Origin: Mumia flava
GTDB lineage: Bacteria; Actinomycetota; Actinomycetes; Propionibacteriales; Nocardioidaceae
Assembly: GCF_002797495.1 (NCBI RefSeq)
Contig: NZ_PGEZ01000002.1
Span: 186,001-250,000 of the forward strand
Reading direction: 5' to 3'
DNA: 64,000 bases
Numbering within the stretch: position 1 is the first letter of the stretch; every line of letters begins with the position of its first letter. The notes beneath the pieces are model-generated. The model was given only the letters and a program-made list of their open reading frames with translations, made no database searches and was not told the DNA's origin. Positions 12,247 through 30,318 of this stretch are shown here, piece by piece. The position numbers and the translations under genes are program-made.

Positions 12247-13848
12247 TCAGGCGAGGCTGACGAGCTCGGAGTAGTCCGCCGACCAGAGGTCCTCGTCGCC
12301 GTCGGGCAGCAGCAGGACCCGGTCGGGCTGGAGCGCCTCGACCGCGCCCTCGTCGTGCGTGACGAGGACGATCGCGCCCTGGTAGGACCGGATCGCTGCC
12401 AGGACCTCCTCGCGTGAGGCGGGGTCCAGGTTGTTCGTCGGCTCGTCGAGCAGCAGCACGTTCGCGGCCGAGACGATCAGCGTCGCCAGCGCCAGCCGGG
12501 TCTTCTCCCCGCCCGACAGCACCGCAGTCGGCTTGTGCGCGTCGTCGCCGCTGAACAGGAAGGCACCGAGCACGCTGCGGGCCTGGGTGTCGGTCAGCGA
12601 CGGCGCCGACGCCTGCATGTTCTCCAGCACCGTGCGCCCGAGATCCAGCGTCTCGTGCTCCTGGGCGTAGTAGCCGACCTTGAGACCGTGCCCCGGGACG
12701 ACCGCACCGGTGTCGGGCTGGTCGATCCCGCCGAGGATCCGCAGCAGGGTGGTCTTGCCCGCGCCGTTGAGCCCGAGCACCACGACCCGGCTCCCGCGGT
12801 CGATCGCCAGGTCGACGTCGGTGAAGATCTCCAGCGAGCCGTAGGACTTGGACAGCCCTTCTGCCATCAGCGGGGTCTTGCCGGCTGCGGCCGGGGTGGG
12901 GAAGTCGATCCGGGCGACCTTGTCGACGCTGCGCTCCCCCTCGACGCCGGCGAGCATCCGCTCCGCACGTCGCGCCATGTTCTGGGCCGCGACGGCCTTG
13001 GTCGCCTTCGCCCGCATCTTGTCCGCCTGGGCGAGCAGGGCCGACGCCTTGCGCTCGGCGTTCTGCCGCTCGCGCCGGCGCCGCCGCTCGTCGGTCTCGC
13101 GCTGCTGGAGGTAGCGGTTCCAGCCCATGTTGTAGACGTCGACCTCGGCGCGGTTCGCGTCCAGGTGCAGCACCTTGGTCACGACGTCCTCGAGCAGCAG
13201 CACGTCGTGGCTGATGATGACGACTCCGCCCTTGTACGACTGGAGGAACGAGCGCAGCCACACGATCGAGTCCGCGTCCAGGTGGTTGGTGGGCTCGTCG
13301 AGCAGCAGCGTGTCGGCACCGAGGAACAGGATCCGGGCCAGCTCGATCCGCCGGCGCTGACCGCCCGAGAGCGTCCCGAGCTCCTGGTCGAGCACCCGGT
13401 CGGGCAGGCCGAGGCTCGCGGCGATCGTCGCCGCCTCGGACGCGGCCGCGTAACCGCCCCCGGCGTGCAGCTCGGCGTCGGCGCGGGCGTACCGCTTCAT
13501 CGCGCGGTCGCGGACCGTGTCGTCGTCCGATCCCATCTCGATCTCGGCGGTCCGCAGCGTCGCGTACACCCGGTCGAGCTCGCGCGCCGACAGGATGCGG
13601 TCGCGCGCCGCCATCGCGGGATCGCCGCTGCGCGGGTCCTGCGGGAGGTAGCCGACGGTGCCGCGGCGCTGGATCGTGCCGGCGGTCGGGTCACCGCCCT
13701 CGCCGGCCAGCAGCTTGGTGAGGGTGGTCTTGCCCGCGCCGTTGCGCCCGACGAGACCGACCTTGTCGCCGTCAGCGACCTGGAAGGACGCCCCGGACAT
13801 CAGGACGCGGGCACCGACGCGGAGCTCGAGGTCGGAGACGGTGATCAT
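12247..13848 (-). CDS. ABC-F family ATPase
   Basis: Soluble protein with two ABC domains and no membrane part (533 residues). ABC-F proteins act on the ribosome as translation factors or antibiotic-protection factors. Domain 1 has Walker A GRNGAGKTTL and signature LSGGQRRRIELARI followed by LLLDEPTNHLD. A charged linker, ERRRRRERQNAERKASALL, lies near residues 255-275. Domain 2 has GLNGAGKTTLLRI, LSGGEKTRLALATL and LLLDEPTNNLD. The C-terminus is short. Which ABC-F subgroup it belongs to cannot be settled by eye. Confidence 0.93.
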   Translation of the reverse strand: MITVSDLELRVGARVLMSGASFQVADGDKVGLVGRNGAGKTTLTKLLAGEGGDPTAGTIQRRGTVGYLPQDPRSGDPAMAARDRILSARELDRVYATLRTAEIEMGSDDDTVRDRAMKRYARADAELHAGGGYAAASEAATIAASLGLPDRVLDQELGTLSGGQRRRIELARILFLGADTLLLDEPTNHLDADSIVWLRSFLQSYKGGVVIISHDVLLLEDVVTKVLHLDANRAEVDVYNMGWNRYLQQRETDERRRRRERQNAERKASALLAQADKMRAKATKAVAAQNMARRAERMLAGVEGERSVDKVARIDFPTPAAAGKTPLMAEGLSKSYGSLEIFTDVDLAIDRGSRVVVLGLNGAGKTTLLRILGGIDQPDTGAVVPGHGLKVGYYAQEHETLDLGRTVLENMQASAPSLTDTQARSVLGAFLFSGDDAHKPTAVLSGGEKTRLALATLIVSAANVLLLDEPTNNLDPASREEVLAAIRSYQGAIVLVTHDEGAVEALQPDRVLLLPDGDEDLWSADYSELVSLA

Positions 13849-13872
13849 ACGAGGACCCAGTGTACGGGCGGG

Positions 13873-14487
13873 TCAGCCGCCGACCTCCACGGACTCGATC
13901 ACGACCGGCTCGGCCGGCCGGTCCCCCTCGCCGGTCGGAGCCTCGGCGATCGCGTCGACGACCGCCTGGCCCTCCGGGTCGGTGACCTCGCCGAAGATCG
14001 TGTAGCCGCCGTCGAGGTGCGGCGTCTCGGCGACCGTGATGAAGAACTGCGAGCCCCCGGTGTCCGGTCCGGCGTTCGCCATCGCCAGGACGTACGGGTG
14101 GTCGAAGGTCAGGTCCGGGTCGATCTCGTCGTCGATGGCGTAGCCCGGGCCGCCGGTGCCGTCCCCGAGCGGGTCGCCGCCCTGGATCATGAACCCGGCG
14201 ATCACCCGGTGGAACGTCGTGCCGTCGTAGAACGGCTCGTCGGTCATCGTGTCGCCGGTCTCGGGGTCGGTCCACTCCTTCTCCCCCGTCGCCAGCCCGA
14301 CGAAGTTCGCGACCGTCTCCGGCGCCGCAGCGGCATCCAGCTCGAGCGGGATGTCACCGGCGCTCGTGTGCAGCACCGCGGTCTCGGCGCTGGTCCCACC
14401 ACCGCCGTCGTCCCCGCCGTCGTCGCCGCATGCCGCGAGCACCATCAGGGCCGGCACGAGCAGCAGCCCGGCGATCCGCCGCCTCAT
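13873..14487 (-). CDS. Cyclophilin-type peptidyl-prolyl isomerase lipoprotein
   Basis: Exported cyclophilin that should assist folding outside the cytoplasm. It starts [15 protein letters not shown] and has the lipobox VLAAC, so Cys near residue 19 is the likely lipid anchor, followed by an Asp/Gly linker. The isomerase domain shows [19 protein letters not shown], then [22 protein letters not shown], and the catalytic Arg in FHRV is present. I chose ATG 14487; GTG 14490, one codon earlier, is equally close to the AAGGAGA site. A strong hairpin separates it from the upstream esx gene. Confidence 0.92.
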
Positions 14488-14520
14488 CACGTTCGTCTCC
14501 TTCGTCGTCCGCACACACGT

Positions 14521-14555
14521 CAGCGGGCTCTCCTCGATGTCGGGAGAGCCCGCTG
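14521..14555 (-). terminator. Terminator hairpin after esx copy 1
   Basis: The arms cagcgggctctcc (14521-14533) and ggagagcccgctg (14543-14555) form a perfect 13-bp stem with a nine-base loop. It lies 15 bases downstream of the esx copy 1 stop on the minus strand and before the cyclophilin gene. The second esx copy has no equivalent hairpin after it. Confidence 0.75.
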
Positions 14556-14567
14556 GGTGAAGGCTGT

Positions 14568-14945
14568 GATCAGCCCTTGAGCGCGCTGGCCAGCTGCTCG
14601 TCGGTGTCCGACAGAGCCTGGGCGGCCTTCGTGAGGTAGTCGCTCATCCCGGTCAGACCCTCCACGGTCTTCTTCACGCCGGTGTTGAACTCCTCGTACG
14701 ACTCGTTGAACGCCTTCGAGGACTTGTCAGTGACGTAGCCGTTCGAGACGAGCTGGTCGATCAGGGACTTGAGCTTCTCGAGCGTCGACTCGATCTCTCC
14801 CTGGCCGGACTTCAGCTGCGACGCCGCGCCGCGCATCTCCTCGTACGTGACGTTCATGTTCGCCATGGTGCGTCCCTTTCGGTTGACGGCTCCGGAGGTC
14901 TCAGGCGAGCCCGGAGGACTCGGTGGTCGGACCCACGCTAACGGA
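14568..14945. repeat. 378-bp direct repeat, copy 1 (esx gene plus leader)
   Basis: Positions 14568-14945 match 16056-16433 at every base except A14729 versus G16217. The repeat covers the whole esx coding region, its AAAGGGA ribosome-binding site and about 79 bases upstream. It starts at the stop codon and ends where the leader begins to differ. Both copies face the same way, so recombination between them would remove one esx gene and the 1110-bp insert. Confidence 0.98.
14570..14866 (-). CDS. WXG100-family (Esx) type VII substrate, copy 1
   Basis: ESAT-6-like helical hairpin protein of 98 residues, the normal size for a type VII secretion substrate. It starts [16 protein letters not shown] and has two predicted amphipathic helices; the turn between them reads [14 protein letters not shown], so the Trp of the WXG motif is replaced by NGY. 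The protein is identical to that of the gene at 16354. The ATG at 14866 follows AAAGGGA. The nearby EssC/EccC-like ATPase is the likely secretion motor. It is followed by a terminator hairpin. Confidence 0.88.
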
Positions 14946-15076
14946 TCCGGGCTGGAAAGGCGTGCTGCCCGCATGCTAGTGAGCGGTGTCTGGCCTTACG
15001 GGCGGGATACAGCTGAAAGGTCGCAAGACAAGTCCTCGTGCCATCTTCAGCGGGGGCGGGCATTCTCGTCGGCCGC

Positions 15077-15997
15077 CTATGCAGGGGCGCATCCCAACGA
15101 TGAGCCTTCCACTACGCTCGCGGATACAGCAGTGCCCTGCTCAAGGCCCCAAGCCGTACGATCCGAGGCACCCGACTTCGACGCCGTCACACCTACGGCC
15201 TTGCCAACAATATCGTCGGCGCGCATCGGAACTGCGATCACACCTGCAGCATTCCAAAGCGCACCCACAAGCTCCCGAGCCACTCCACAGTTCGTAAACA
15301 CATACCGCAAAGTGCCATCAATTCTTGCGGGCAATGTTCCTGTTTGCTCGACGTCCTCGACTTCACCATTGCTTCCGAGGGTGTACATCATGACATTCCC
15401 ATTGCCGTCGATGTCGCCGTCGAAGGTGGGAAGGCTTGAGGGCGGCATGCGTGTGACTGGCACGTAACTCATACCACCACCCCCGACATCCTCCGAGGCC
15501 GGATCAAATCTCACAGCGATTCCCTTACAGTTCGCTGGGAACTGTACCGTATCGTTCACGGCGAGAGTCGGCGGAGTGACGCCTACGATGTAGGCACTTG
15601 GACTTAGTGGCACCGTCCGGGTCACATTCGAAGTCAGGTCAACCGAAAAGGGCCCCGGCCCGCTGCATAGCGTCGCAGCCCAGCGATAGACGACATCCAC
15701 ATCTCCACTAATCGGATACCCATCCAGTCCAAAAACCGGACGGTTCACGAAGAACGCAGTCGAGTCGATGCTCGTCCGCCCTTCGGGGACATATAGCACT
15801 TTCGGACGATTTCCCGGAACTAGATCGCTATAGCTTACGCCTCCGTATAAGCCACCGAATAGGAACCCGCTGGAATAGATGGCCGGGTTCGACTCGGCGG
15901 CCGTTGCACTCGACGTGCCACCTGTCGTTGAACTGACTCCGATGATCGCAAGTGTTGCAAGCAGAACAATCCGACGCAGCAATGAGGTCACGGCCAC
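15077..15997 (-). CDS. Exported protein of unknown function in low-GC insert
   Basis: I recognise no family. The start I favour is GTG 15997, with GGAGG six bases before it; an in-frame ATG at 16027 has no such site. The product (306 residues) begins with a Sec-type signal: basic LLRR, a hydrophobic core IVLLATLAIIGV, then a Ser/Thr-rich stretch ending SATAAES. The mature part is rich in Gly, Val, Ser and Pro and looks beta-rich. It has four Cys, in LCSGPG, ANCKG, TNCGV and GCAPA, which could form two disulfides. GC is clearly lower than in the neighbours (about 57% in a counted 60-base line) and codons end in A/T far more often. It lies between the two esx copies on the same strand. Confidence 0.75.
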   Translation of the reverse strand: MAVTSLLRRIVLLATLAIIGVSSTTGGTSSATAAESNPAIYSSGFLFGGLYGGVSYSDLVPGNRPKVLYVPEGRTSIDSTAFFVNRPVFGLDGYPISGDVDVVYRWAATLCSGPGPFSVDLTSNVTRTVPLSPSAYIVGVTPPTLAVNDTVQFPANCKGIAVRFDPASEDVGGGGMSYVPVTRMPPSSLPTFDGDIDGNGNVMMYTLGSNGEVEDVEQTGTLPARIDGTLRYVFTNCGVARELVGALWNAAGVIAVPMRADDIVGKAVGVTASKSGASDRTAWGLEQGTAVSASVVEGSSLGCAPA

Positions 15998-16055
15998 GTA
16001 CTCCCTCCAGGCTAGACGAGAATCCAATCGAGGCTAATCCCGTGATTAGTGTTGC

Positions 16056-16433
16056 GATCAGCCCTTGAGCGCGCTGGCCAGCTGCTCGTCGGTGTCCGAC
16101 AGAGCCTGGGCGGCCTTCGTGAGGTAGTCGCTCATCCCGGTCAGACCCTCCACGGTCTTCTTCACGCCGGTGTTGAACTCCTCGTACGACTCGTTGAACG
16201 CCTTCGAGGACTTGTCGGTGACGTAGCCGTTCGAGACGAGCTGGTCGATCAGGGACTTGAGCTTCTCGAGCGTCGACTCGATCTCTCCCTGGCCGGACTT
16301 CAGCTGCGACGCCGCGCCGCGCATCTCCTCGTACGTGACGTTCATGTTCGCCATGGTGCGTCCCTTTCGGTTGACGGCTCCGGAGGTCTCAGGCGAGCCC
16401 GGAGGACTCGGTGGTCGGACCCACGCTAACGGA
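16056..16433. repeat. 378-bp direct repeat, copy 2 (esx gene plus leader)
   Basis: Second copy of the repeat described at 14568-14945, offset by 1488 bases. The single difference, G16217, changes a Thr codon only at its third base. Upstream of this copy lie another 95 bases and the start of the divergent EssC-like gene, so this copy keeps what is probably the original upstream context. Confidence 0.98.
16058..16354 (-). CDS. WXG100-family (Esx) type VII substrate, copy 2
   Basis: Encodes the same 98-residue Esx protein as the gene at 14866. It is divergent from the large ATPase gene at 16529, an arrangement that suits shared control of motor and substrate. Downstream, 60 bases separate it from the exported-protein gene with no terminator hairpin, so the two could be cotranscribed. 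Because the products are identical, any partner would be either a homodimer or an Esx protein encoded elsewhere, such as the one at 30319. Confidence 0.88.
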   Translation of the reverse strand: MANMNVTYEEMRGAASQLKSGQGEIESTLEKLKSLIDQLVSNGYVTDKSSKAFNESYEEFNTGVKKTVEGLTGMSDYLTKAAQALSDTDEQLASALKG

Positions 16434-16515
16434 CGGCGGGTTCAGATGGGAGTCCCGGCGGTGAACATCGCGCCACCGGGGACGGACCACCGTCGGCGTG
16501 AGCGTCCGTCGCGCC

Positions 16516-16521
16516 TATCCT
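16516..16521 (+). promoter_or_regulatory. Likely -10 element for leaderless essC-like transcript
   Basis: TATCCT ends seven bases before the ATG at 16529, and no Shine-Dalgarno sequence is present. A -10 box there would place transcription start at or next to the A of the ATG. Confidence 0.55.
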
Positions 16522-16528
16522 GTCGACC

Positions 16529-19500
16529 ATGCGTGTCGAGGTGACCCTGGCCCACCCCCGGACCGGTGCGTGGCGGGACGTCGTGGTCGACGCCGACGAC
16601 CACGCCTCGACGAGGGAGGTGGTCGCCACCCTGCTCGAGCGGTCCTCGGGCGTCGCGGCGCACTCCGGCCTCGACCAGCCCGGTGTGATCTCCCTCGACG
16701 CGCACCGGGACCACCGCGCACGCGCCGCCGCCGGTCCCGCGCTCCCGGCGGTCTACCTGAACGGCACACCGCTGGACCTCGACGCAGCCTTCGCGGACTC
16801 CGGGGTCAAGCACGGAGCGCTGCTCACGGTCGACGACCCCACCGCATCCATCCTCGACGAACCGCACGGGCTCGTCGAGGTCAGGGTCGTCACCGGCGCT
16901 GCTGCCGGATCGGTGCACCGGCTCGGCATCGGTGCGGCCTCGATCGGCTCCGACGCGGGGTGCACGATCCGCGTCGACGACGCACGGGTGCCGCCGCTCG
17001 CCGCCACCGTGGACGTCTCGGTCGCCGGCGTCGTCACGGTCCGTCCCGCCGACGGCGCCGCGGAGGTCCTCGCCGAGACCGCCCCGCGCGCCGAGCACCC
17101 GATCGCACTCGACCGGCAGCCGGTCGACGGCGAGGCCGACTGGCCGATCGGCGCCCAGCTGGCGCTCGGGGAGCTCCTGCTGGAGCTCGAGAGCGTGACG
17201 ACACCGGACGCCGCGGTCGAGGACAGCCCGGAGGCCGGCTGGCTGGACTACAACCGCCCCCCGCGCCTGCTCCCGCCGGAGCGCCCGACGAAGTTCCGGC
17301 TGCCCTCACCCCCGTCGGACGAGAACCGCCAGGGACTCCCGTGGCTCGTGATGCTGACGCCGGTCGTGCTCGCCGTCGGGCTCGCGGTCGCGATGCAGCG
17401 CTGGTACCTGCTCACGATGGCGGTGTTCTCGCCGATGATGATGCTGGCGTCGTACATGCAGAGCCGCAAGCAGGGCAAGCAGACCTACCGCCAGCGGCTC
17501 GCCGACTACCGCGAGCGCAAGGCGGCCACCGAGGACGACGTCGAGCAGGCGGTGGTCGACGAGAGGCTCGCCCGGCGCGCGGCGGCACCGGACCCGGCTC
17601 TGGCCCTCCTGATCGCCTCGGGGCCGCGCTCACGCCTGTGGGAGCGACGTCGGACCGACCCGGACTACCTGTCGATCAGGCTGGGGATCGGCGACCTCGA
17701 GTCGGAGGTCACCGTCGAGGATCCCGAGCAGCTCGAGCACCGCCGTACGACCGTCCGCACCGCCTACGACGTGCCCGTCACCGTGTCGCTCGCCGAGCGG
17801 GGAGTGATCGGCGTCGCCGGCTCCACCGAGGTGACGCGACGACTCGCGTGCTGGGCCATCACTCAGCTGGCGGTGCTGCAGAGCCCGCGCGACACCCAGG
17901 TGTACGTCCTCACCGACGGCGACGGTGCGGCCGACTGGGACTGGCTGCGCTGGCTCCCGCACGCGCGCCCGCAGCTCGGCCAGGACGCCACCACCACGAT
18001 CGGGATCGACGCCGAGACCTGCGCACGGCGGGTCGCCGAGCTCTCGGGGCTCCTGGCGGCACGGCAGTCCGCAGCCGCCAAGCGCGACGGTCGACACGGT
18101 GACCACCCGGACGTCGTGCTCGTGCTCGACGGCGCTCGACGGCTGCGGAGCCTGCCCGGCGTCGTCGCCCTCCTCAAGCAGGGTCCCGCCCACGGGATCC
18201 GCGCGATCTGCCTCGACACCGACGAACGGCTGCTCCCCGAGGAGGCCGCGGCCGTCGTCCTCGAGACCGCGACCGGCGACGTGACCCTGCGTCAGCAACG
18301 GGTCACCGTCGTCGACGCCATCACCCCGGACCTCGTCTCCGACGCCTGGCTGTCGCGGACGGCCCGAGCGCTGGCCCCGATCCGCGACATCTCGGGCGGC
18401 GACGACGACTCGGTCCTCCCGGCGGCCTGCCGCCTCACCGAGGTGATGGGGATCGAGCCGCCCACCCCGGAGGTCATCCGGGGCCGGTGGGCGGTCAGCC
18501 CACGCTCGACCGAGGCCGTCGTCGGGATCTCGTTGGACGGGCCGTTCGCGATCGACATGCGCCGCGACGGCCCGCACGGTCTGATCGCGGGCACCACCGG
18601 CGCCGGCAAGTCGGAGCTCCTCCAGTCCGTCGTCGCCTCCCTCGCGGTCGCGAACCGCCCGGACGGGATGACCTTCGTCCTCGTCGACTACAAGGGCGGT
18701 GCGGCGTTCAAGGACTGCGTCGACCTCCCCCACACCGTGGGCATGGTCACCGATCTCGACACGCACCTGGTCGAACGGGCGCTGGTCTCGCTGGGCGCCG
18801 AGCTCACCCGCCGCGAGCACATCCTCGCCGAGGCCGGCGCGAAGGACATCGAGGACTACACCGACCTGCAGGCCAAACGCCCCGAGCTGGCCGCGATGCC
18901 GCGCCTGCTGATCGTGATCGACGAGTTCGCGTCGATGGCGCGCGAGCTGCCCGACTTCGTGACGGGCCTCGTGAACATCGCCCAGCGCGGCCGGTCGCTG
19001 GGCATCCACCTGATCCTCGCGACCCAGCGCCCCTCCGGCGTCGTCTCGCCGGAGATCCGCGCCAACACGAACCTCCGGATCGCGCTCCGTGTCACCGACG
19101 GCTCCGAGAGCACCGACGTGATCGACGCACCGGACGCCGGGCAGATCTCCAAGTCGACGCCCGGCCGGGCGTACGTCCGGCTCGGCGCCAGCTCGCTCGT
19201 GCCGTTCCAGTCCGGGCGCGTGGGTGGTCGCCGCCCCGGCGTGGTCTCGACCACGAGCGAACCGTGGGTTACCGGGATCGACACCCGCCGGCTGCCGCAG
19301 CCCGTCCCCCTCCGCCCGAAGGTCGACGCGGTCGACGACGCCGAGGTGACCGACCTGACCGTCCTCGTCGAGGCGATCCGCGGCGCCAACGAAGCCCTGG
19401 GCCTCCCGCCCCAGCACAGTCCGTGGCTGCCTGCCCTGCCGGACGCCGTGCTGCTCGACGCGCTGCTGGCCGACGCCCCAGCCTCCCGCGGCGGTCACCT

Positions 19501-21004
19501 CCTGGCTCCCGTGCCGTACGCGGTCGAGGACCTGCCCGCACAGCAGGCCCGACGGCACGCCGTGGTCGACTTCGCCACCTTCTCGCACCTCGCCGTCGCC
19601 GGTGGTCCCCGCAGCGGGCGGTCCCAGCTGCTGAGGACGTTCGCGGGCTCCGCCGCCCAGCTGGTCTCGGCCGCCGACCTCCACCTCTACGGCCTGGACT
19701 GCGGCAACGGTGCGCTCCTGCCGATCGCCGACCTGCCTCACTGCGGCGCGATCGTCCAGCGCACCCAGACCGACCGTGCGACCCGCCTGCTCAGCCGGCT
19801 GACGGCCGAGATGGCGCGGCGGCAGGAGCTGATGGGCGCTGGTGGGTACGCCGACCTGGGCGAGTTCCGCGCGGCTGTCGCACCCGACGAACGACTCCCC
19901 CACATCGTGCTGATGATCGACCGGTGGGAGGGGTTCCTCGGCGGCCTCGCCGAGACCGACAGCGGCACGCCGATGGAGCAGGTTCAGGCGATGCTGCGCG
20001 AGGGCGCCTCCGTCGGCCTCCACCTGATCATCACGGGCGACCGCCAGGTCGTGAACGCCCGGATGTCCACCCTGATCGAGGACAAGATCGGCCTGCGGCT
20101 CCCGGACCGCGGCGACTTCAGCCTGCTCGGCCTGCAGCCTCGCTCGATGCCCGAGGAGATCGCCGAGGGCCGCGGGTTCCGTTCGGAGTCCGGCATCGAG
20201 CTCCAGATCGCGCTGCTCGCCGAGGACCGTAGCGGCCAGGCCCAGGCGGCAGCCCTGCGAGCGGTCGCCGAGGCCGCCCGGGAGCGCGCGTCCGACCTCC
20301 CCCGCGCGCGTCGCCCGTTCCGGGTCGACGTGCTCCCGGGTCGGATCGGCTTCGACGAGGCCTGGGCGATGCGCCCGCCCGAGCTGCCCGCCGCGTGGGG
20401 TCTGGTCGGTGTGGGCGGCGACGACCTGACCGCCCTCGGGCTCGATCTCGTCCGGACCCCGGTGGCGCTCGTCGGCGGCCCGCCGCGCTCCGGACGGTCG
20501 ACCGTGCTCCTCGCGATGGCGGAGTCGCTCCTGCAGCGCGGGGCCGAGCTCGTGCTCGCAGCTCCCAGGCCGTCTCCCCTGCGCGACCTCGCGGGCCGCG
20601 ACGGCGTACGTGCGGTGCTCACCGGCACCGATCTGGCGGAGGACGAGCTGGCCGCGCTGGTCGACGCAGGCGAGGGTCCGGTCGTGCTGATCGTCGACGA
20701 CGGCGAGCTGCTCAAGGACGTCGACGCCAAGGGCTACCTGAAGGACCTGCAGCGCACCGGTGCTGACCGGGGCCGGGCGGTGGTCGTCGGAGGCGACGTC
20801 GACGGGATCGGGAGCGGGTTCAGCGGCTGGCAGGTCGACATGAAGGGCCGCCAGGGTGTCCTGCTCTCCCCTCAGAGCACGACGGACGGTGAGCTGATCG
20901 GCGTCCGGATCCCGCGCAGCGCCCTCGGGAACGCCCCGGCCGGACGCGCGCTGGCGAACGTCGGCGACGGCACGCTCCGTACGATCCAGGTCCCCACCCC
21001 CTGA
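16529..21004 (+). CDS. EssC/EccC-like FtsK/SpoIIIE ATPase of type VII secretion
   Basis: Membrane-anchored motor of 1491 residues. The N-terminus has a small ubiquitin-like/FHA-like part (about residues 1-190), as in Firmicutes EssC rather than mycobacterial EccC. Two membrane segments lie near residues 271-310. Three ATPase modules follow. Module 1 has a full Walker A, GTTGAGKSELL (about residues 688-698), and Walker B LLIVIDEFASM near 793. Module 2 reads GGPRSGRSQLL near 1024 and module 3 GGPPRSGRSTVLL near 1315, each with Arg in place of the P-loop Lys, and Walker B sites MIDRWE and IVDDGE. Only module 1 is likely to hydrolyse ATP well. The divergent esx genes are the probable substrates. 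No EccB, EccD, EccE or mycosin gene is in the window. Confidence 0.93.
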   Translation: MRVEVTLAHPRTGAWRDVVVDADDHASTREVVATLLERSSGVAAHSGLDQPGVISLDAHRDHRARAAAGPALPAVYLNGTPLDLDAAFADSGVKHGALLTVDDPTASILDEPHGLVEVRVVTGAAAGSVHRLGIGAASIGSDAGCTIRVDDARVPPLAATVDVSVAGVVTVRPADGAAEVLAETAPRAEHPIALDRQPVDGEADWPIGAQLALGELLLELESVTTPDAAVEDSPEAGWLDYNRPPRLLPPERPTKFRLPSPPSDENRQGLPWLVMLTPVVLAVGLAVAMQRWYLLTMAVFSPMMMLASYMQSRKQGKQTYRQRLADYRERKAATEDDVEQAVVDERLARRAAAPDPALALLIASGPRSRLWERRRTDPDYLSIRLGIGDLESEVTVEDPEQLEHRRTTVRTAYDVPVTVSLAERGVIGVAGSTEVTRRLACWAITQLAVLQSPRDTQVYVLTDGDGAADWDWLRWLPHARPQLGQDATTTIGIDAETCARRVAELSGLLAARQSAAAKRDGRHGDHPDVVLVLDGARRLRSLPGVVALLKQGPAHGIRAICLDTDERLLPEEAAAVVLETATGDVTLRQQRVTVVDAITPDLVSDAWLSRTARALAPIRDISGGDDDSVLPAACRLTEVMGIEPPTPEVIRGRWAVSPRSTEAVVGISLDGPFAIDMRRDGPHGLIAGTTGAGKSELLQSVVASLAVANRPDGMTFVLVDYKGGAAFKDCVDLPHTVGMVTDLDTHLVERALVSLGAELTRREHILAEAGAKDIEDYTDLQAKRPELAAMPRLLIVIDEFASMARELPDFVTGLVNIAQRGRSLGIHLILATQRPSGVVSPEIRANTNLRIALRVTDGSESTDVIDAPDAGQISKSTPGRAYVRLGASSLVPFQSGRVGGRRPGVVSTTSEPWVTGIDTRRLPQPVPLRPKVDAVDDAEVTDLTVLVEAIRGANEALGLPPQHSPWLPALPDAVLLDALLADAPASRGGHLLAPVPYAVEDLPAQQARRHAVVDFATFSHLAVAGGPRSGRSQLLRTFAGSAAQLVSAADLHLYGLDCGNGALLPIADLPHCGAIVQRTQTDRATRLLSRLTAEMARRQELMGAGGYADLGEFRAAVAPDERLPHIVLMIDRWEGFLGGLAETDSGTPMEQVQAMLREGASVGLHLIITGDRQVVNARMSTLIEDKIGLRLPDRGDFSLLGLQPRSMPEEIAEGRGFRSESGIELQIALLAEDRSGQAQAAALRAVAEAARERASDLPRARRPFRVDVLPGRIGFDEAWAMRPPELPAAWGLVGVGGDDLTALGLDLVRTPVALVGGPPRSGRSTVLLAMAESLLQRGAELVLAAPRPSPLRDLAGRDGVRAVLTGTDLAEDELAALVDAGEGPVVLIVDDGELLKDVDAKGYLKDLQRTGADRGRAVVVGGDVDGIGSGFSGWQVDMKGRQGVLLSPQSTTDGELIGVRIPRSALGNAPAGRALANVGDGTLRTIQVPTP

Positions 21005-21009
21005 CCGGC

Positions 21010-21139
21010 GAGTCGTCCGTGGCGGGGTCCCGAGTCATCCATGGCGGGGTCCCGAGAACGCGTCCGGCCTGAGGCGCCCGCCGTGACTCGCGAGCACGCC
21101 ACGTGCGACTCGCGAGCCCGCCGTGCGTGACTCGCGAGC
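21010..21139. repeat. 22-bp periodic repeats between convergent genes
   Basis: Two 22-bp units, gagtcgtccgtggcggggtccc (21010-21031) with a diverged second copy (21032-21053), are followed after a gap by three copies of gactcgcgagc at 21085, 21107 and 21129, again exactly 22 bases apart. Each of the latter holds the palindrome ctcgcgag. The block fills the gap between two convergent 3' ends, so it may end transcription from both sides or bind a protein. Confidence 0.85.
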
Positions 21140-21162
21140 CGACGGGGCGGCGACGCCGCGGT

Positions 21163-23883
21163 TCAGCCGCCCGCGGCGATCGGGCCCGTGGGCATCAGCT
21201 CGTCGAGCAGCGCCTCGGTCTCCGCCTCCAGGGTGGCACCGTCGAGCGCGTCACCCATCGACTCCAGCGATCCCTGGACGCCGGCGATGCCGTCGGTCGC
21301 GTAGGCGGCCCGGATCACGGCGCGCCACAGGTGCTGGTCTGCCGGTCGCGCCCGCAGACCGGCCTCGGCTGCCGCACGCGCTCCGTCGGGATCGCCGGTC
21401 GCCATCAGCTCGGCGAGGCGCCGGGCTCCGTCCACGACGACCTCCGTCATCTCCCGGGGAAGCGCGTCGCGTGCCACCCAACCGAACCGCCCCTGCGGGA
21501 CGTCGGCGAACGGCTCGGCACGGACGAGCTGGAGGCCCCGGCGGAGCAGCTCGGCCTCCTCTCCCGGGGCAGCGGCCGAGCGCGCCCGCAGGAACAGCGT
21601 CCGCAGTGCGTCCCAGTCGCAGACGACCGAGTCGGACAGGCTCAGCCGGCCCGACTGGTCCTCGCGCAGGACGTGGCTCCCGTCCGCGTCCGACCCGAGC
21701 CACTCGCGTACCCGCTCGACGGTCGCGTCCCGGACGTCGACGGTGACTCCCCGCGGCCAGATCGCCCCGCCCAGCACGGTCGGGTGGACGCCGTCGGGGT
21801 GGAGCGCGAGGTAGGCGACCATCTCGGTCGCGGCGTCGGAACGCTCGGGCGCGATGTCGCCGGCGCCCTGCACGGCCACCCGACCGAGCACCCCCACCCG
21901 GCGCGGTGCTGTCGTCCACGCTGCGTCGTCGTGCGGGACCGCCGGTTCGGAGATCGCGACGCGGTCCGCGGCCTGGTCGGTCTCGGCGCGGCCGGCCTGG
22001 AACAGCTCGGCGACGGCAGCGACCTCGCGCGCCGTCACACGGTTCGCGGACAGGGTGAGCCCGAGCTGGGGCGCACTCATCGTGCCGTGCTCGTCGACCT
22101 GGAGGCGCCACCGGGCATCACGATGCTCGCCGGCGACCAGGACCGAGAACGCGCGCCGCCGACCCCCGGCCACCAGCGCACCCAGACGTTCGGCGAGCAT
22201 CTCGTCCGGTGCGTGCCCGCAGACGATCAGGTGGGAGAGGAGCCCGCGGCGCGACATCCGACCGCTGAGCACGTCGTCGTCGAGGTCGCCGAAGACCGCC
22301 TCGATCCGGTCGATCTCGGTGCCGAGGTCGGCGACCCGGAGCCGGTGGTCGACGATGCCCGCGACGTCGCCGGGGAGATCGGTCGTCGTGACACGCACCG
22401 CGTCCGACCAGGGCGCGGTCGCGGCGCCCACCGCGATCGCCGCTGCGACCTGGGCTCCGACCGTCGCGTCACCGGCCAGGCTCACGACCCCGCCCGCGAC
22501 CTCCATGTCGATCAGGACGTCGCGCCCGTCCTCGTCGGTGCCGAGCCCGACGAGGGCCGGGTACGGGGCGGACTCCCCCGTGACGGGCGACGGGGTCGCC
22601 GTCGTCCGCCAGCGGGCGCCGTCCTCGAGCGCTTCCCACCCGGCGACGGCGTCCGGAGCCGGCGGCGCCAGGAGCAGCTCGACCGCGTCGTCGTCGACCA
22701 GAGCCGCGTACGCCGAGGGCGGGGTCGTCCCGGCCTCGCGACAGCGCGCCGTCAGGTCCCGCAAGGTCACGTCCAGCCGGTGCACCCGATCACCCGTCGC
22801 TGCGACCCGGAGCTCGGCCTCGACCTCGCGTGCGGACGCGTCGGGCGCACGCCCGGGGCCGCCTCGCCGCAGGCGCGCCAGCGCGCCCAGCACCGACGCG
22901 GCGAGCATCCCGGCGCCGATCCACCAGGCATCGCTGCTCTGGGCCTGGCCCGCCTCCTCCAGCCGGTCGACGTCACCGGTCGCCGCGGCGGCAGCACCGT
23001 CGGTCTGGGCGCTCCCCGCGCTCGACGACCCGCTCGGCGCAGGTGTCGCGGGCGCCTTCGGCTCGGGCGCGCGGACCCGGTCGACGTTCACCGCGTCCTC
23101 GGGCATCACGAGCTGCCAGCCCGGCTGGATCAGCCGGGCGAGCTCGAGCCGGCCTCCGTCGGACTGCACACGGTCGTGGTTGAGGTGGTAGATCTCGTGG
23201 TAGCGACGGCCGTCGCCGAGGTGCTTCTCGGCGATGTCCCAGAGGTTGTCGTGGTAGCCGTGCTTCGGCGCCGCGACCACGTAGACCTTCTTGCCGACGA
23301 GTCCGTCACGGTGGTCGGCCTGGTCGTCTCTGGCCTGCCGGTCGCCGGCGTCGAGTGAGGCCGCCTCGGCGGAGTCGGCCACGAAGGAGGCCTGGGGCGC
23401 CTCGACCACCCGTGTCACCGAGTCGGAGTGCGACGGCGCGGGGGCGGTCACGGCCTGCGCCGGCCCGGCGACGACGCCGGTCAGAACGACGAGGCCGACG
23501 AGGACACGGGCGAGGTTCTGGAGCGGCCCGGCCAGGGGGATGCGGCCCGCGAGTCCGCCCCGCCGCGCGGCCACGACCTCCACGACGACACAGACCACGA
23601 ACCACAGCCACACCAGCCAGACCACGCCCACCAGCACCGTGAGCAGATCCTCGATGCTGAGCTGGTCGGCCAGTCCGTCCAACGAGCCGAAGCTCGTCGG
23701 GATCGGCGGCGGTCCGGCGAGCAGCACGAGCGCGACCGGGAGGCCGACGAGCAACAACCCGAGTGCGAGCACGCCGCCGACCACCTCCGCGGGGCTGCGG
23801 CGTACGGGCTGGCGTGCCGGGGCACGGTCGGCGAAGCGCTGCGGTCCGTGCGCGTCCGGCGGACGCTGCGTCGTCCGGGTCAT
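21163..23883 (-). CDS. Membrane LysM protein with C-terminal BTAD-type regulator domain
   Basis: Large 906-residue protein that joins envelope and regulator parts. Membrane segments lie near residues 36-56, 85-112 and 128-145. A LysM-like domain near residues 198-262 reads HDNLWDIAEKHLGDGRRYHE with PGWQLVMPE at its end. Another membrane segment, WWIGAGMLAASVLGAL, lies near 320. The C-terminal 270 residues look like a winged-helix plus bacterial transcriptional activator domain (RVGVLGRVAVQGAGD, then VREWLGSDADGSHVLRE, and the helical DALPREMTEVVVDGARRL repeat region). Similar proteins often sit beside Tad loci in actinomycetes. The pilus operon lies directly upstream on the same strand. Its ligand and targets are unknown. 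Confidence 0.8.
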   Translation of the reverse strand: MTRTTQRPPDAHGPQRFADRAPARQPVRRSPAEVVGGVLALGLLLVGLPVALVLLAGPPPIPTSFGSLDGLADQLSIEDLLTVLVGVVWLVWLWFVVCVVVEVVAARRGGLAGRIPLAGPLQNLARVLVGLVVLTGVVAGPAQAVTAPAPSHSDSVTRVVEAPQASFVADSAEAASLDAGDRQARDDQADHRDGLVGKKVYVVAAPKHGYHDNLWDIAEKHLGDGRRYHEIYHLNHDRVQSDGGRLELARLIQPGWQLVMPEDAVNVDRVRAPEPKAPATPAPSGSSSAGSAQTDGAAAAATGDVDRLEEAGQAQSSDAWWIGAGMLAASVLGALARLRRGGPGRAPDASAREVEAELRVAATGDRVHRLDVTLRDLTARCREAGTTPPSAYAALVDDDAVELLLAPPAPDAVAGWEALEDGARWRTTATPSPVTGESAPYPALVGLGTDEDGRDVLIDMEVAGGVVSLAGDATVGAQVAAAIAVGAATAPWSDAVRVTTTDLPGDVAGIVDHRLRVADLGTEIDRIEAVFGDLDDDVLSGRMSRRGLLSHLIVCGHAPDEMLAERLGALVAGGRRRAFSVLVAGEHRDARWRLQVDEHGTMSAPQLGLTLSANRVTAREVAAVAELFQAGRAETDQAADRVAISEPAVPHDDAAWTTAPRRVGVLGRVAVQGAGDIAPERSDAATEMVAYLALHPDGVHPTVLGGAIWPRGVTVDVRDATVERVREWLGSDADGSHVLREDQSGRLSLSDSVVCDWDALRTLFLRARSAAAPGEEAELLRRGLQLVRAEPFADVPQGRFGWVARDALPREMTEVVVDGARRLAELMATGDPDGARAAAEAGLRARPADQHLWRAVIRAAYATDGIAGVQGSLESMGDALDGATLEAETEALLDELMPTGPIAAGG

Positions 23884-23971
23884 CTCGTTCCCCCTGCTGG
23901 GCTGGGTCGTTGGTCGGGGTTCGCTCCCACTCTTCTACGGGTGGGTGGGCGGGCGGTCAAGGGTCGCGGCG

Positions 23972-24454
23972 TCAGTCGGGACCCGTGGCGGGCTCCGCGG
24001 ACGCGGCGGCCCGCACGTCGAACGTGTCGATGTTCACCAGTCCGAGCAGCGCGGTGTCGGTCGTGTCCTCCACGCTGACCTCGACCTCCGCGCCGGCCGG
24101 CGCGACGGAGACCGCGTACTGGCCGGGTGCGTACCCGCGCTGGGTGAGGTACGAGGCAGCGCGCTGCCTCGCGAGGCCGACGTCGATCACGATCGTGCCG
24201 TCCGCGCGCAGCCGGTCGATGTCGAGCGAGTCCGCACCGACCCGCGCCGCCTGCTCGGCGTCGTCGGCGACTCGCATCCGAGCGTTCAGGGCCAGTCCTC
24301 CGTCGATCGCGAGCCCGGCCGCGACGAGGAGGACGATGGACATCCCGACCACGAAGACCGCCGCCGACCCGCGCTCGGACTCCCCGCGCGCGGCGAGGCG
24401 TACGCGCAGGGCGCTCGGGCTCGCGCGCAGGCTCCTGCCGAGAGGCACGATCAT
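23972..24454 (-). CDS. TadE/TadG-like pilus assembly protein
   Basis: Last gene of the Tad operon. The 160-residue protein has a basic start, then ESERGSAAVFVVGMSIVLLVAAGLAIDGG near residues 26-53, the hydrophobic type IV prepilin-like segment of Tad minor pilins. The rest is extracytoplasmic. ATG 24454 overlaps the stop of the preceding gene by four bases (ATGA), which sets the start. Family members are minor pilins or anchor proteins of Flp pili. Confidence 0.82.
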   Translation of the reverse strand: MIVPLGRSLRASPSALRVRLAARGESERGSAAVFVVGMSIVLLVAAGLAIDGGLALNARMRVADDAEQAARVGADSLDIDRLRADGTIVIDVGLARQRAASYLTQRGYAPGQYAVSVAPAGAEVEVSVEDTTDTALLGLVNIDTFDVRAAASAEPATGPD

Positions 24455-24873
24455 CCGAACCTCCGGTAGGTGTCGATCGGGGCGCTCCCGGTCGCGGTCA
24501 GGGTCTGGGTGCCCGACAGCCCGATCAGCCCGAGGCCGTCGTTCGGGACCGCGCACCGCAGGGTGACGTCGACGACGCCGCCCTCGGTGAAGGATCCGGA
24601 GATCTGGTCGACGTCGCACGACGCGAACCCGTCGAGCGCCTGGGTCGCGACCGTGCTCGCCCGGGCCCGTGCGCTCGGCACGTCCCGCGCGAACGACGCC
24701 GCCCGGGCCGCGTCGCGGGCTGCGGCCTCCATGTCGCCCTTGACGGACACGTAGCGACCGCCCGCGACGACGAGGAGCGTGAACATGAAGAGCACCGGGA
24801 TGAAGATCACCACCTCGACGGCCATCGAGCCCCGCTCGCGGCCCGCGGCACGGTCGCGCCACCACCGGGTCAC
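24451..24873 (-). CDS. TadE-like minor pilin
   Basis: A 140-residue TadE-family protein. Its N-terminus has RERGSMAVEVVIFIPVLFMFTLLVV, a prepilin-like segment with Glu five residues after Gly of the processing site region. Two Cys in FASCDVDQ and TLRCAVP may pair outside the cell. The start is GTG 24873, overlapping the upstream stop by four bases; the stop overlaps the downstream ATG by four. It probably forms a pseudopilin pair with the neighbouring TadE. Confidence 0.85.
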   Translation of the reverse strand: MTRWWRDRAAGRERGSMAVEVVIFIPVLFMFTLLVVAGGRYVSVKGDMEAAARDAARAASFARDVPSARARASTVATQALDGFASCDVDQISGSFTEGGVVDVTLRCAVPNDGLGLIGLSGTQTLTATGSAPIDTYRRFG

Positions 24874-25265
24874 GGCGCGTCCTCCTGGAACTGCTCGATC
24901 GGGCCCTGGACCTCTTCGCTCAGGTCGGTGACGCCGAGGAACGGCAGCAGGCGTACGGCGTGGGCCGTCACGGTCGCACGCATCTCGTCGTCGCCGACCT
25001 GGACGACCTGGACGTCGATGTCGTCGATCAGACCGCCACCGACCGTGCTGGCGTACGACGCGCCGCGGGCCTCGGCCGCGACCGTGTCGCCGGTCACCCG
25101 GGCCGTACGGCCCGCTTCACGAGCCGCGGCCGAGACGGCCTGGTTGCCGAGGTAGACGAGGGCGAACTGGACGGTCAGCAGGATCGCGATCATGAGCAGC
25201 GGCATGTAGAGCACCAGCTCGATGGCGCTGGTGCCCCGTTCGTCGCGTCGCCGCTGCTGTGTCAC
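24870..25265 (-). CDS. TadE-like minor pilin
   Basis: A 131-residue TadE-family protein with DERGTSAIELVLYMPLLMIAILL near residues 8-30, the usual short leader followed by Glu and a hydrophobic helix. The remaining part is small and acidic and should lie outside the membrane. GTG 25265 follows the Flp pilin gene by nine bases. Together with the gene that follows it gives a tandem TadE pair. Confidence 0.85.
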   Translation of the reverse strand: MTQQRRRDERGTSAIELVLYMPLLMIAILLTVQFALVYLGNQAVSAAAREAGRTARVTGDTVAAEARGASYASTVGGGLIDDIDVQVVQVGDDEMRATVTAHAVRLLPFLGVTDLSEEVQGPIEQFQEDAP

Positions 25266-25274
25266 GGAGGTGCG

Positions 25275-25484
25275 CTACTGGCTCTCGATCTTGTTGCCGA
25301 TCTCCTTGGCCTCACCCTCGAGCGCGTCGCGCAGGAAGCCGGCGACGAGGATGCAGATGCCGACGACGATAGCCGCGATGACGACCCACTCGACGGCCGA
25401 GGCGCCCTCCTCCGACCGGGTGCGCCGGATGCGCACGTCGAGCATGGTGAGCAGATAGCCCAGCGGGCTCAGCGGGTTGAACAT
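25275..25484 (-). CDS. Flp-type pilin
   Basis: Small 69-residue protein and the likely main pilin. The processing region reads RSEEGASAVEWVVIAAIVVGICI, with the Gly/Ala cleavage area followed by Glu and a hydrophobic helix, as in Flp prepilins. The leader of about 25 residues is longer than the classical form but common in actinobacteria. ATG 25484 has ACGGAGA upstream. The prepilin peptidase (TadV/CpaA) needed for cutting is not encoded in this window. Confidence 0.82.
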   Translation of the reverse strand: MFNPLSPLGYLLTMLDVRIRRTRSEEGASAVEWVVIAAIVVGICILVAGFLRDALEGEAKEIGNKIESQ

Positions 25485-25528
25485 GATGTCTCCGTTTCGG
25501 GTGGCTCGGTGCTAGGGATTCGGTGCGG

Positions 25529-26443
25529 TCAGAGGCCGACGACCTCGGCGACGGCCGGATAGATGAGGAACAGCAGGAAACCGACGCACAGCAGGAGCTG
25601 GGCGACGAGCATCGACTGCGAACGCTCTGCGGCCCGTCCCTCGATGTCGGACAGTTCGCGCTGGCGCATGGAGGCGGCGCGGGCGGCCAGCGACTGGCGC
25701 ACCTGCGCGCCGTCCTCGGCGACGAGCGCGAGCGCTGCTGCGAGATCGCGGAGCTCCTCGACCGCCATCTCCTCGCCGAGATCCCCGAGCGCGGCCCACG
25801 GGGTCACGCCCTGGAGCCGGGCGGACTCGATCGTGTCGCGGATCCGCACCATCGCCCAGCCGTCGCTCAGGGCGGCCGCGGCCGACAGCGACTCGGGCAC
25901 ACCGCGCCCACCCGCGAGGTTCATCGAGACCAGGTCGAGGAAGGCGCTGACCACGTGCTTGAAGTCGCGGCGTCGATCGGCCGCCTCGCTCGCGAGCTGG
26001 AGCGTGACGAGCGCGGCACCGACCAGGGCGCCGAGCCCGGCGAGCCAGATCGGCAGGTTGAAGCCCACACCGAAGAAGAGCACGGCCGGGATGAGCGCGA
26101 TGCCCGGGGCGAACAGCCCGGCCAGGGCCCCCATCACGGTCATGCCGAGGTGCGCCTCGACCGAGCGCCCCATCACCGCCAGGTCGGCCCGGACACCGGC
26201 CGGCAGGCGCCAGCCCCGCAACTCGAGGAGGGTCGCGATCCGCGACCCGAGGCGGCGGACCCGGAGCGACTCGTCCTGGTGGCGACGGTCGGCGGTCAGG
26301 CTGAGGTGGGTCGACGAGCGGCGACGGGCCGCGTCGAGCCGGGCCAGCTCCGAGGCTGCGGTGCCGGTGCCGTGGTCGAACTGAAGCACGAGCGTGAGCA
26401 CCCCGAGCCCGCACAGCGCCCCGGCCAGCATGACGAGCATCAT
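25529..26443 (-). CDS. TadC-like type II secretion F-domain protein
   Basis: Inner membrane platform protein of the Tad pilus, 304 residues. It has an N-terminal membrane segment, then a central pair (HLGMTVMGALAGLFAPGIALIPAVLFFG and LAGLGALVGAALVTLQL), the T2SSF domain with GVPESLSAAAALS and VRQSLAARAASMRQRE, and a final membrane segment LLLCVGFLLFLIYPAV. The ATG 26443 overlaps the tadB-like stop (ATGATG), which fixes the start over a longer open frame. Confidence 0.86.
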   Translation of the reverse strand: MMLVMLAGALCGLGVLTLVLQFDHGTGTAASELARLDAARRRSSTHLSLTADRRHQDESLRVRRLGSRIATLLELRGWRLPAGVRADLAVMGRSVEAHLGMTVMGALAGLFAPGIALIPAVLFFGVGFNLPIWLAGLGALVGAALVTLQLASEAADRRRDFKHVVSAFLDLVSMNLAGGRGVPESLSAAAALSDGWAMVRIRDTIESARLQGVTPWAALGDLGEEMAVEELRDLAAALALVAEDGAQVRQSLAARAASMRQRELSDIEGRAAERSQSMLVAQLLLCVGFLLFLIYPAVAEVVGL

Positions 26444-27303
26444 CGGCGGCCTCCGTCGGCCGTCGTGAAGAGGAAGCGCTGCGGCAGCTCGAAGACCGCG
26501 AGCCGACGCATCCACAGGAAGCCCAGCGCGAACAGCCCGAGGATGAGCAGCAGCACGAGCTGGCCGGCCGGTGTGGAGTACGGGGCGAGGTAGTCGCGGT
26601 TGAACACGATCAGACCGCCGACGAACACGACCGTGATGCCGACGACGATCTGCACGCTCCGGCGGGTGCTCGCGCGTCCGGCGTTGACACGACGCCGCAT
26701 CTCGAGCTCCTCGCGGGCCGAGTCCGCCAGCGAGGACAGCACGTCACGCAGGCCGGGTCCCCGCAGGCGGGCGTTGAGCATCAGGGTCGCGATCACGAGG
26801 TCGGCGCTGGGGTCGTCGAGATCGTCGGCGAACTGCTGCAGCGCCGTCGGGAGGGGCGTACGCATCCGAAGCCGGTCCGACAGCGCGATCAGCTGCGGCT
26901 GGATCGCGGGCGAGGCGGCGTACGCGGTCGCGGGGATCGCCTGCTCCAGCCCGACCGCACCGGCGATCGTGTCGCGCAGCGACTCGGTCCACGCGGCCAG
27001 GCCCTCGAGGCGTGCCATGGCCTGCTTCTCGTGGGCCGCGCCTCCCATCAGCATCGGCGCGAAGAAGACGAGAGCGCCGAGCGCGATCGCGAGCACCGGC
27101 CACCGGGTGAAGAGCAGCACCGCGAGGCCCACGCCGACAGCGATCGGCAGGCGCGTCCCCAGGGTCCGCATCCCGTCGACCAGGCCGCTGCTCGCGGCGA
27201 CCTCGCGGTCCGGCTCCCGCGCGGTCATCGCCCAGATCAGCATCAGCACGCCACCGCCGATCAGGGCGCCGGTGAGGGCGAGCAGCAGGATCTGGGCGGA
27301 CAT
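26440..27303 (-). CDS. TadB-like type II secretion F-domain protein
   Basis: Second platform protein, 287 residues. Membrane segments lie near residues 5-26, 53-86 and in the last 70 residues. The T2SSF domain shows LEGLAAWTESLRDTIAGAVGLEQAI and ARLRGPGLRDVLSSLADSAREEL. The ATG at 27303 shares one base with the stop of the CpaF-like gene, and its own stop overlaps tadC, so the three are translationally coupled. Confidence 0.88.
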   Translation of the reverse strand: MSAQILLLALTGALIGGGVLMLIWAMTAREPDREVAASSGLVDGMRTLGTRLPIAVGVGLAVLLFTRWPVLAIALGALVFFAPMLMGGAAHEKQAMARLEGLAAWTESLRDTIAGAVGLEQAIPATAYAASPAIQPQLIALSDRLRMRTPLPTALQQFADDLDDPSADLVIATLMLNARLRGPGLRDVLSSLADSAREELEMRRRVNAGRASTRRSVQIVVGITVVFVGGLIVFNRDYLAPYSTPAGQLVLLLILGLFALGFLWMRRLAVFELPQRFLFTTADGGRR

Positions 27304-28607: not shown

Positions 28608-29395
28608 CAGACGACCTGCCTCTCGTCGTAGCCACCGGCACGCGCGCCCGCCAGCTCGCGGATCCGGGAGGTGACGTCGACCAGGGACCGGAACAGCAGG
28701 GATCGCCGCTGCGCCCGCGGCGAGGCGGTACGCAGAGCCCGCACCGCCTTCGGGTCGTACGCGACGGTGCCGAACACAGGCACCGGGACGCCGGCCGAGG
28801 CCAGGAGCCGCTCGAGGTCCTCGCGGCTGCGCCGGTCGCCCGGATCACCCACCAGGACGACGCCGACACCTACGGAGCCGATCGAGGAGATCCGCAGCGG
28901 CTCCCGCAGTCCGAGGAGTCGCTCGCGCAGGTGCGCCAGCGACTCGACCTCCGAGCGCGCGACGAGCACGAGCGCGTCGGCCGCCTCGATCACCGGTCCG
29001 ACCGGTGTGCCCGGCACGATCCGGCCGCAGTCGGCGAGCACGTCGCGCGGATCGGCGGCCAGGCCGCGGGCGACGCTCGGCCAGGCCATGCCGAGCCCCT
29101 GCACCTGCGCCGGGCTGCGGACGCCGGCGAGCACCGGGGTCCCGTCGTCGAGGAGCTGGAGGTGGTCGTCGAGCGCCGCGTCGCGCCCGCCCCGCAGCGC
29201 CACCGCGTACGACAGCAGTCCGCGCTCGGTCTCGAGGGGCGTCCCGTCAGGGGCCGTCGACCGCAGCGCGACGTCGCCGCCGACCGGGTCGAGATCGGCG
29301 ACCACCGGATCGGTCGGCCAGGACGCGGCCAGGGCCGTCACGGTCTGCGTGACGCCGGGCGATCCCTTAGCCGAGGCGAAGGCGATCAGGCTCAT
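28607..29395 (-). CDS. CpaE-like MinD/ParA-family protein
   Basis: A 262-residue P-loop protein of the kind that localises pilus assembly. The deviant Walker region reads FASAKGSPGVTQTVTAL: the signature Lys is kept, but the P-loop Lys before Thr is Val, so ATP binding or hydrolysis may be altered. VVADLDPVGGDVALR matches the MinD switch region, and ADALVLVARSEVESLAHLRE the later strand. It has no receiver domain. The gene overlaps the cpaB-like and cpaF genes by one base each. Confidence 0.85.
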   Translation of the reverse strand: MSLIAFASAKGSPGVTQTVTALAASWPTDPVVADLDPVGGDVALRSTAPDGTPLETERGLLSYAVALRGGRDAALDDHLQLLDDGTPVLAGVRSPAQVQGLGMAWPSVARGLAADPRDVLADCGRIVPGTPVGPVIEAADALVLVARSEVESLAHLRERLLGLREPLRISSIGSVGVGVVLVGDPGDRRSREDLERLLASAGVPVPVFGTVAYDPKAVRALRTASPRAQRRSLLFRSLVDVTSRIRELAGARAGGYDERQVV

Positions 29396-30156: not shown

Positions 30157-30318
30157 GAGGGGGATCCTTCGGGGGTCGTACGCGGTCACGGACACGCCCC
30201 GGTGCGCGAGAACGACGGTGGTCCCGAGACCGATGACGCGGACGTCCGCAGTCTAAGGTATGGAGGCGTCAGCACCGAATCTCCTCGGGTGAGCCGCAGG
30301 GCTGCTAACGTCCTGCGC
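30157..30318. promoter_or_regulatory. Divergent promoter between Tad operon and WXG operon
   Basis: This 162-base gap holds the start signals of two operons. On the plus strand TAACGT (30306-30311) lies seven bases before GTG 30319. On the minus strand TAGACT (30251-30256) is a good -10 for the Tad operon, leaving a leader of about 85 bases. Next to it is the perfect 12-bp palindrome gcggacgtccgc at 30238-30249, well placed to act as an operator over the Tad start site. Confidence 0.5.

Follow-up and report, generated by a model that had tools for sequence, protein, structure and literature searches.

In the stretch of DNA analyzed in this study (64,000 nucleotides of Mumia flava contig NZ_PGEZ01000002.1, referred to below as the window), a gene predicted to encode an exported protein lies between two almost identical direct copies of an esx gene, beside a type VII secretion motor and a Tad pilus cluster. 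The best reading of these data, which we hold with about even confidence, is that a unit composed of esx and an accessory surface-protein gene was inserted recently by recombination at esx. This reading is based on (i) the empty layout of the locus in a congener (genome G003), (ii) the foreign composition of the insert, (iii) the almost complete identity of the two esx genes, and (iv) the insertion, in another genus, of a cassette-gene relative into a Tad operon.

Direct comparison confirmed the claim of the initial annotation that two direct esx copies of 378 bp, placed 1488 bp apart, differ at a single silent position. The distal copy (14568–14945, minus strand) carries esx1 (14570–14866) and the proximal copy (16056–16433, minus strand) carries esx2 (16058–16354), each repeat comprising the 98-aa esx gene, its leader of 79 bp and the 2 bp that follow the stop codon. 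The sole mismatch (A/G at 14729/16217) is synonymous, and the two genes are alike at 296 of 297 bases, with no amino acid differences. The encoded protein is a member of the WXG100/EsxA family, as revealed by matches to PF06013 (E 5.9e-20; 71.8 bits, cutoff 27.3) and TIGR03930 (52.6 bits, cutoff 44.85). Only 6 of the 345 repeated 20-mers of the whole window fall outside the esx pair, which excludes a chance origin of the repeats; the other direct-repeat families at 13000–19000 (the 20 largest of 35 were examined) do not exceed 45 nt.

At 14400–16600 neither a sigma-70-like promoter nor a T-run terminator was called, Rfam gave no match at gathering score at 13800–17000, and no tRNA genes were found across the window. 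Two short inverted repeats were observed: CTAATC-N4-GATTAG at 16034–16049, located after the esx2 stop codon and before the start of the cassette gene, may represent an operator or a weak terminator, and a hairpin-like structure at 14521–14555, between esx1 and the adjacent peptidyl-prolyl isomerase (PPI) gene, may be a shared terminator.

The 1110 bp enclosed by the repeats (14946–16055) have a GC content of 58.3%, compared with 71.8% for the window, in which the lowest non-overlapping stretch of this length reaches 65.0%; a low-GC insert of about 1110 bases with one gene, as proposed in the initial annotation, is therefore present. The cassette gene (15077–15997, minus strand; 306 aa, 4 Cys) starts with GTG behind a GGAGGG site recognized by eye. 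Its GC3 is 59%, against 91–96% in six neighbouring genes, and its composition is foreign-looking and not ameliorated. The N-terminus of the product is hydrophobic and, judged by eye and from hydropathy, the protein is probably Sec-exported, in agreement with the Sec-type product suggested earlier.

Searches with the cassette protein gave no match in Pfam (including WXG/LXG-like families), NCBIfam or PHROGs; PADLOC, applied to three members of the family, also gave no match, and in the PDB phmmer found nothing at E 1, the best profile hit having E 0.88. The fold predicted from the single sequence (mean pLDDT 33.7) was not used for fold searches. No relatives were found in plasmids and none were confirmed in viral contigs. 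At the DNA level, the insert shared nothing beyond one 20-bp match with the loci compared, and the 131 bp to the left of the cassette gene folded no better than shuffled sequences. A composite transposon or an IS-borne cassette was considered and rejected: no transposase or recombinase is found inside the flanking repeats, the only gene called there lacks a Pfam match, and the repeat itself is an esx gene.

The surrounding locus has the defining pair of type VII secretion, an EssC/EccC-like FtsK ATPase adjoining a WXG100 gene. The motor (16529–21004, plus strand, divergent from esx2; PF01580, FtsK/SpoIIIE) matched TIGR03928 with E 1.4e-168, yet remained under the curated cutoff. Against the equivalog models of EssC (T7SSb), EccCa and EccCb (both T7SSa) it scored 562.9, 420.3 and 318.1 bits, with cutoffs of 778.4, 509.15 and 346.55, respectively; since all of these scores are under the curated cutoffs, the motor is assigned just to the EssC/EccC type and neither to T7SSa nor to T7SSb proper. 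Its residues 119–191 match Yop-YscD_cpl weakly (20.1 bits, under the cutoff of 33.2), a domain that we take to be FHA-like. The next gene (21163–23883, minus strand) encodes a 906-aa protein, presumably a LysM protein, with a weak BTAD match (PF03704, E 7.7e-4, under the cutoff), whose gene is conserved next to those for EssC and the Tad proteins. It is followed by the Tad (Flp) pilus cluster (23972–30195, minus strand), composed of genes for a TadG-like protein, two TadE proteins, TadC, TadB, CpaF, a CpaB-like SAF protein, and a protein lacking a Pfam match that we assume to be CpaE-like. On the other side of the esx pair lies the PPI gene (13873–14514, minus strand; PF00160), which in G003 adjoins the single esx.

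The named relatives of esx all come from actinobacteria (Knoellia koreensis, an Actinomycetales MAG and Paraoerskovia marina). Genomes of three families, f1, f3 and f23, share a neighbourhood in which Tad genes and a gene for a LysM/BTAD-like protein accompany the EssC-type motor (window 16529–30195; loci L023, L060, L061, L062, L075/L112, L113 and L114).

Variants T7SSc to T7SSj have been described, and in the available text of that article Tad genes adjoin T7SSg and T7SSh, both of Bacillota (PMC11217815). The window resembles the variants in having a WXG100 gene and an EssC-type ATPase, and its cluster at 23972–30195 provides the Tad adjacency by which T7SSg and T7SSh are defined there (PMC11217815). 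T7SSg and T7SSh, however, are reported from Bacillota, with ATPases without FHA domains (PMC11217815), and the window may differ from them: it is actinobacterial and encodes a BTAD-like protein as well as a motor whose FHA-like N-terminal match is weak and under the cutoff. The sole new actinobacterial type in the available text is T7SSd, of Olsenella and Bifidobacterium (PMC11217815).

Six genomes of the genus were compared, including that of the window (G000). Two esx copies occur only in G000 and one in G003 (82% amino acid identity), while the other four genomes gave no match at E ≤ 0.001. A close motor is likewise present within the genus only in G003 (74%), the best matches in the other genomes being 29–32%. 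The order of genes in G003 is ABCF-PPI-esx-EssC-LysM/BTAD-Tad, with one esx and neither insert nor cassette, which provides the single-esx, insert-free relative that the initial annotation had proposed to look for. Compared with this layout, esx1 of the window retains the PPI flank and esx2 the EssC flank, and the added DNA therefore corresponds to one esx block plus the insert.

Either esx copy of the window is alike to the G003 gene at 247 of 297 bases (83%), with 18 amino acid differences. Since the two copies agree with each other at all but one of these bases, their duplication or conversion must be recent relative to the split from G003. The single silent change in 378 bp, set against 83% gene identity to G003, supports the recent duplication or gene conversion suggested earlier; an old duplication of esx was rejected on account of the same single change.

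The insertion at esx may be pictured as follows. The ancestral layout would have been a T7SS/Tad locus with a single esx, to which a 1488-bp unit, one esx copy and a gene for a foreign exported protein, would have been added via homologous recombination at esx. This step may have resembled integration by a single crossover, or else a duplicative exchange of equivalent outcome, through the 378-bp block of leader and esx. The copies would be identical owing to the recency of the event and possibly to gene conversion, and the cassette protein, exported by Sec, might function together with the Tad/T7SS apparatus on the cell surface. Such a layout would permit loss or replacement of the cassette through the same repeats, one intact esx always remaining, and the same logic may hold for esx copies enclosing substrate-like modules in other actinobacteria.

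The cassette family is rare and patchy. Members were detected in 2 of 58 relatives, 4 of 391 genomes sampled from the order, 2 of 394 from the class, and 1 of 12 from the genus of G569 (the samples overlap, and the genome of the window is counted in all but the last). The five distinct members come from G000, G158, G328, G056 and G569, and three cysteines are common to all of them in the alignment. In G158 the relative is located approx. 0.3 kb from LysM/BTAD-Tad genes, with EssC approx. 9 kb away. In G569 it lies inside a Tad operon, between tadE and a gene without a Pfam match that is presumably Flp-pilin-like; the Tad genes that flank it adjoin without a cassette in 11 of 11 congeners (in five of them at greater length). 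Neither repeats of more than 40 nt nor esx were found flanking the relatives in G569 or G158, which indicates that the esx pair is not the general route of movement of the cassette gene. In G328 and G056 the relatives are placed away from T7SS loci, and the Tad/EssC locus of G328 is on another contig.

Three of the five members are thus located in Tad/EssC loci if the window, the starting point of the search, is included, and two of four if it is not; the family is tied to Tad pilus clusters at least as much as to the type VII motor. The initial annotation had proposed an accessory cargo loaded next to a type VII motor. Its accessory nature is supported by the patchy distribution, while the tie to the motor has to be shared with Tad. 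We infer that the cassette protein may be a surface accessory of the Tad/T7SS apparatus. These observations link a previously undescribed, patchy family of exported proteins to actinobacterial loci that combine Tad pilus and type VII genes.

Some further observations concern genes at comparable positions. In G158, a 26-bp inverted repeat (96%) is present just downstream of the cassette homolog (L075:7409–7464). A two-gene unit, encoding a short protein that by eye is lipoprotein-like and an exported-looking protein of 288–345 aa, was noted in four genomes, adjacent to esx or close to EssC (L059:6442–8078, L062:7602–9001, L112:8669–10100 and L114:15662–17220); two of its exported proteins were compared and showed no relation to the cassette protein. 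The exported proteins that G090 and G114 encode between the EssC and esx genes were tried as cassette relatives and showed no recognizable relationship to the cassette protein (hhalign probability 0.1–0.2).

Near-identical esx copies are not confined to the window. Searches of 294, 394 and 299 genomes (overlapping samples, searched with different cutoffs and, in the last case, with another esx as the query) gave matches in 44, 62 and 18 genomes, respectively, and at least two matches were present in 21 distinct genomes. A pair of at least 98% DNA identity was found in 13 of these 21 (G000, G148, G171, G195, G225, G264, G280, G284, G650, G810, G888, G1034 and G1121), the safe count being 11, because the contig-end fragments of G171 and G225 may show one copy twice. 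The best pair reaches only 94–97% in three genomes (G268, G270 and G304), and the copies are clearly diverged in five (G189, G240, G529, G786 and G800). Matches located at contig ends (four in G225 and two in G171; L139–L142, L155 and L156) suggest that esx repeats break assemblies and that the copy numbers in these two genomes are uncertain.

In six of the 21 genomes, esx copies 91–100% identical enclose other genes within approx. 5.5 kb (99.7–100% in G000, G650 and G888, 94.8–98.3% in G264, and 91–92% in G304 and G268), a count that covers the surroundings of the copies in G000, G148, G264, G268, G270, G280, G284, G304, G650, G810, G888, G1034 and G1121 and of one of the three copies of G529. 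In G270, G280, G284, G810 and G1034 the near copies follow one another head to tail, and no called gene of note separates them. The closest parallel to the window is G650, in which 396-bp repeats, 100% identical and 4065 bp apart, surround five genes; the copies of G888 are identical at 285 of 285 bases and lie 4.4 kb apart. The initial annotation had suggested looking in close relatives for a different gene between two esx copies; other genes beside or between near-identical esx copies were in this way found in other actinobacteria, G650 and G888 among them. In G650, G888, G264, G304 and G268 the enclosed genes encode a 100-aa partner and a protein of approx. 360–440 aa; these being genes of another kind, the likeness to the window is purely architectural.

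From their position and the 100-aa partner, we infer that the module proteins are effector-like; no clear Pfam domains were found in them. Partner and effector-like proteins are 26–56% identical between modules of one genome in G650, G888, G1121, G264 and G810, and 40–68% in G304 (29–55% in the comparisons of module proteins made inside G650 and inside G888), and the esx copies of such modules are 91–100% identical. In G1121, a second esx is placed in an orphan module on another contig (286/288 bases, 99.3%), and the identity does not extend beyond its start and stop codons, a pattern that suggests gene conversion. The copies of G148 are alike at 294 of 297 bases and are separated by 2.1 Mb on one contig. 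Orphan esx genes, without an EssC match in the stretch examined, were noted in L098:9272–12904 (G1121), L070 (G148) and L101 (G732); those of L098 and L101 each head a partner-effector-like module, and those of G1121 and G148 are approx. 99% identical to the copy at the EssC locus.

In a tree of 48 esx sequences, in which the multi-copy genomes were represented by G000, G148, G264, G268, G270, G280, G284, G304, G650, G810, G888, G1034 and G1121 (G270 and G280 by their near copies), the copies were sisters in all seven multi-copy genomes outside group g7. Within g7, those of G270, G280 and G284 grouped by genome, three of the four copies of G264 grouped together, and those of G304 and G268 were mixed.

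These data bear on several other explanations of the window. The arrangement could be an ordinary, one-off event, consisting of the insertion of a foreign gene and a single duplication of esx, with the resulting pair as a neutral and transient by-product that is to be lost. This is a possible, if somewhat doubtful, explanation: it agrees with the occurrence of the esx-cassette-esx layout in only one of six genus genomes, with the unameliorated composition of the cassette, and with the same gene family being present without esx repeats in G569 and G158, but it does not account for the near-identical esx of 13 multi-copy genomes (11 without contig-end fragments), nor for the six in which esx copies enclose other genes. 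It might also be supposed that every substrate or accessory gene needs its own adjacent esx for expression or co-secretion, with identity kept by selection and gene conversion. The near identity to the locus copy of esx genes placed away from it in G1121 and G148 is in line with this, as is the co-directional arrangement of esx2, the cassette gene and esx1; the Sec-type N-terminus of a product without a WXG/LXG-like match, and the lack of a flanking esx of the window's type beside the G569 and G158 relatives, make it unlikely.

An assembly artefact, in which ambiguity of the repeat graph joined a separate piece of esx and cassette into the locus, is highly improbable. By reasoning, a short-read graph with 378-bp repeats would equally fit an EssC-esx-PPI locus plus such a piece, and the contig-end matches of G225 and G171 indicate that repeats of this kind trouble assemblies. 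However, a one-base difference distinguishes the two copies, the 378-bp repeat occurs exactly twice in the whole assembly, and a 1.17-Mb contig, inside which the pair sits, runs through the site.

Recent insertion by recombination at esx leads to a wider proposal. It is plausible that esx serves as a general exchange handle. More specifically, and only tentatively, esx with its leader may be a recombination handle in actinobacterial EssC-type loci, where modules carrying, or flanked by, conversion-kept esx copies would be gained, lost or exchanged and esx itself never lost; in the window, a gene for a Tad-linked surface protein would have been loaded very recently. Against the insertion at esx stand the cassette relatives without flanking esx (G569 and G158), those outside T7SS loci (G328 and G056), the different kind of genes that esx copies enclose elsewhere, with enclosing copies only 91–92% identical in G304 and G268, the five multi-copy genomes with diverged esx, and the three more in which the best pair is only 94–97% identical. 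If esx copies are exchange handles, this would explain a conserved type VII core beside gene turnover, and the modules should differ between strains, with junctions falling in esx.

Among the literature matches listed, which were judged by title and start of abstract and in which subscription journals are mostly uncovered, none described accessory genes enclosed by esx repeats in these actinobacteria. For Mycobacterium tuberculosis, the available text of PMC13061034 describes gene conversion between esx paralogues and gives Uplekar 2011 as a reference. Near-identical esx genes of one genome exchange sequence there, as may also be the case in the window; the M. tuberculosis networks, however, comprise several esx pairs of classical ESX systems (PMC13061034), whereas in the window the lone esx gene of an EssC/Tad locus is directly repeated around a foreign gene. 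In firmicutes, the available text of PMC9484751 reports recombination between tandem T7SS immunity genes (esaG/tipC). There, homologous recombination between tandem paralogues adds and removes genes at a T7SS locus, as is proposed for the window, but it is the variable immunity genes that are repeated (PMC9484751), whereas in the window the repeated part is the conserved WXG100 gene and the enclosed part is variable.

A longer and more diverged direct repeat was observed in Knoellia koreensis (L020:1544–5091), where 1.8-kb copies, 84% identical, adjoin a BTAD-like gene and esx.
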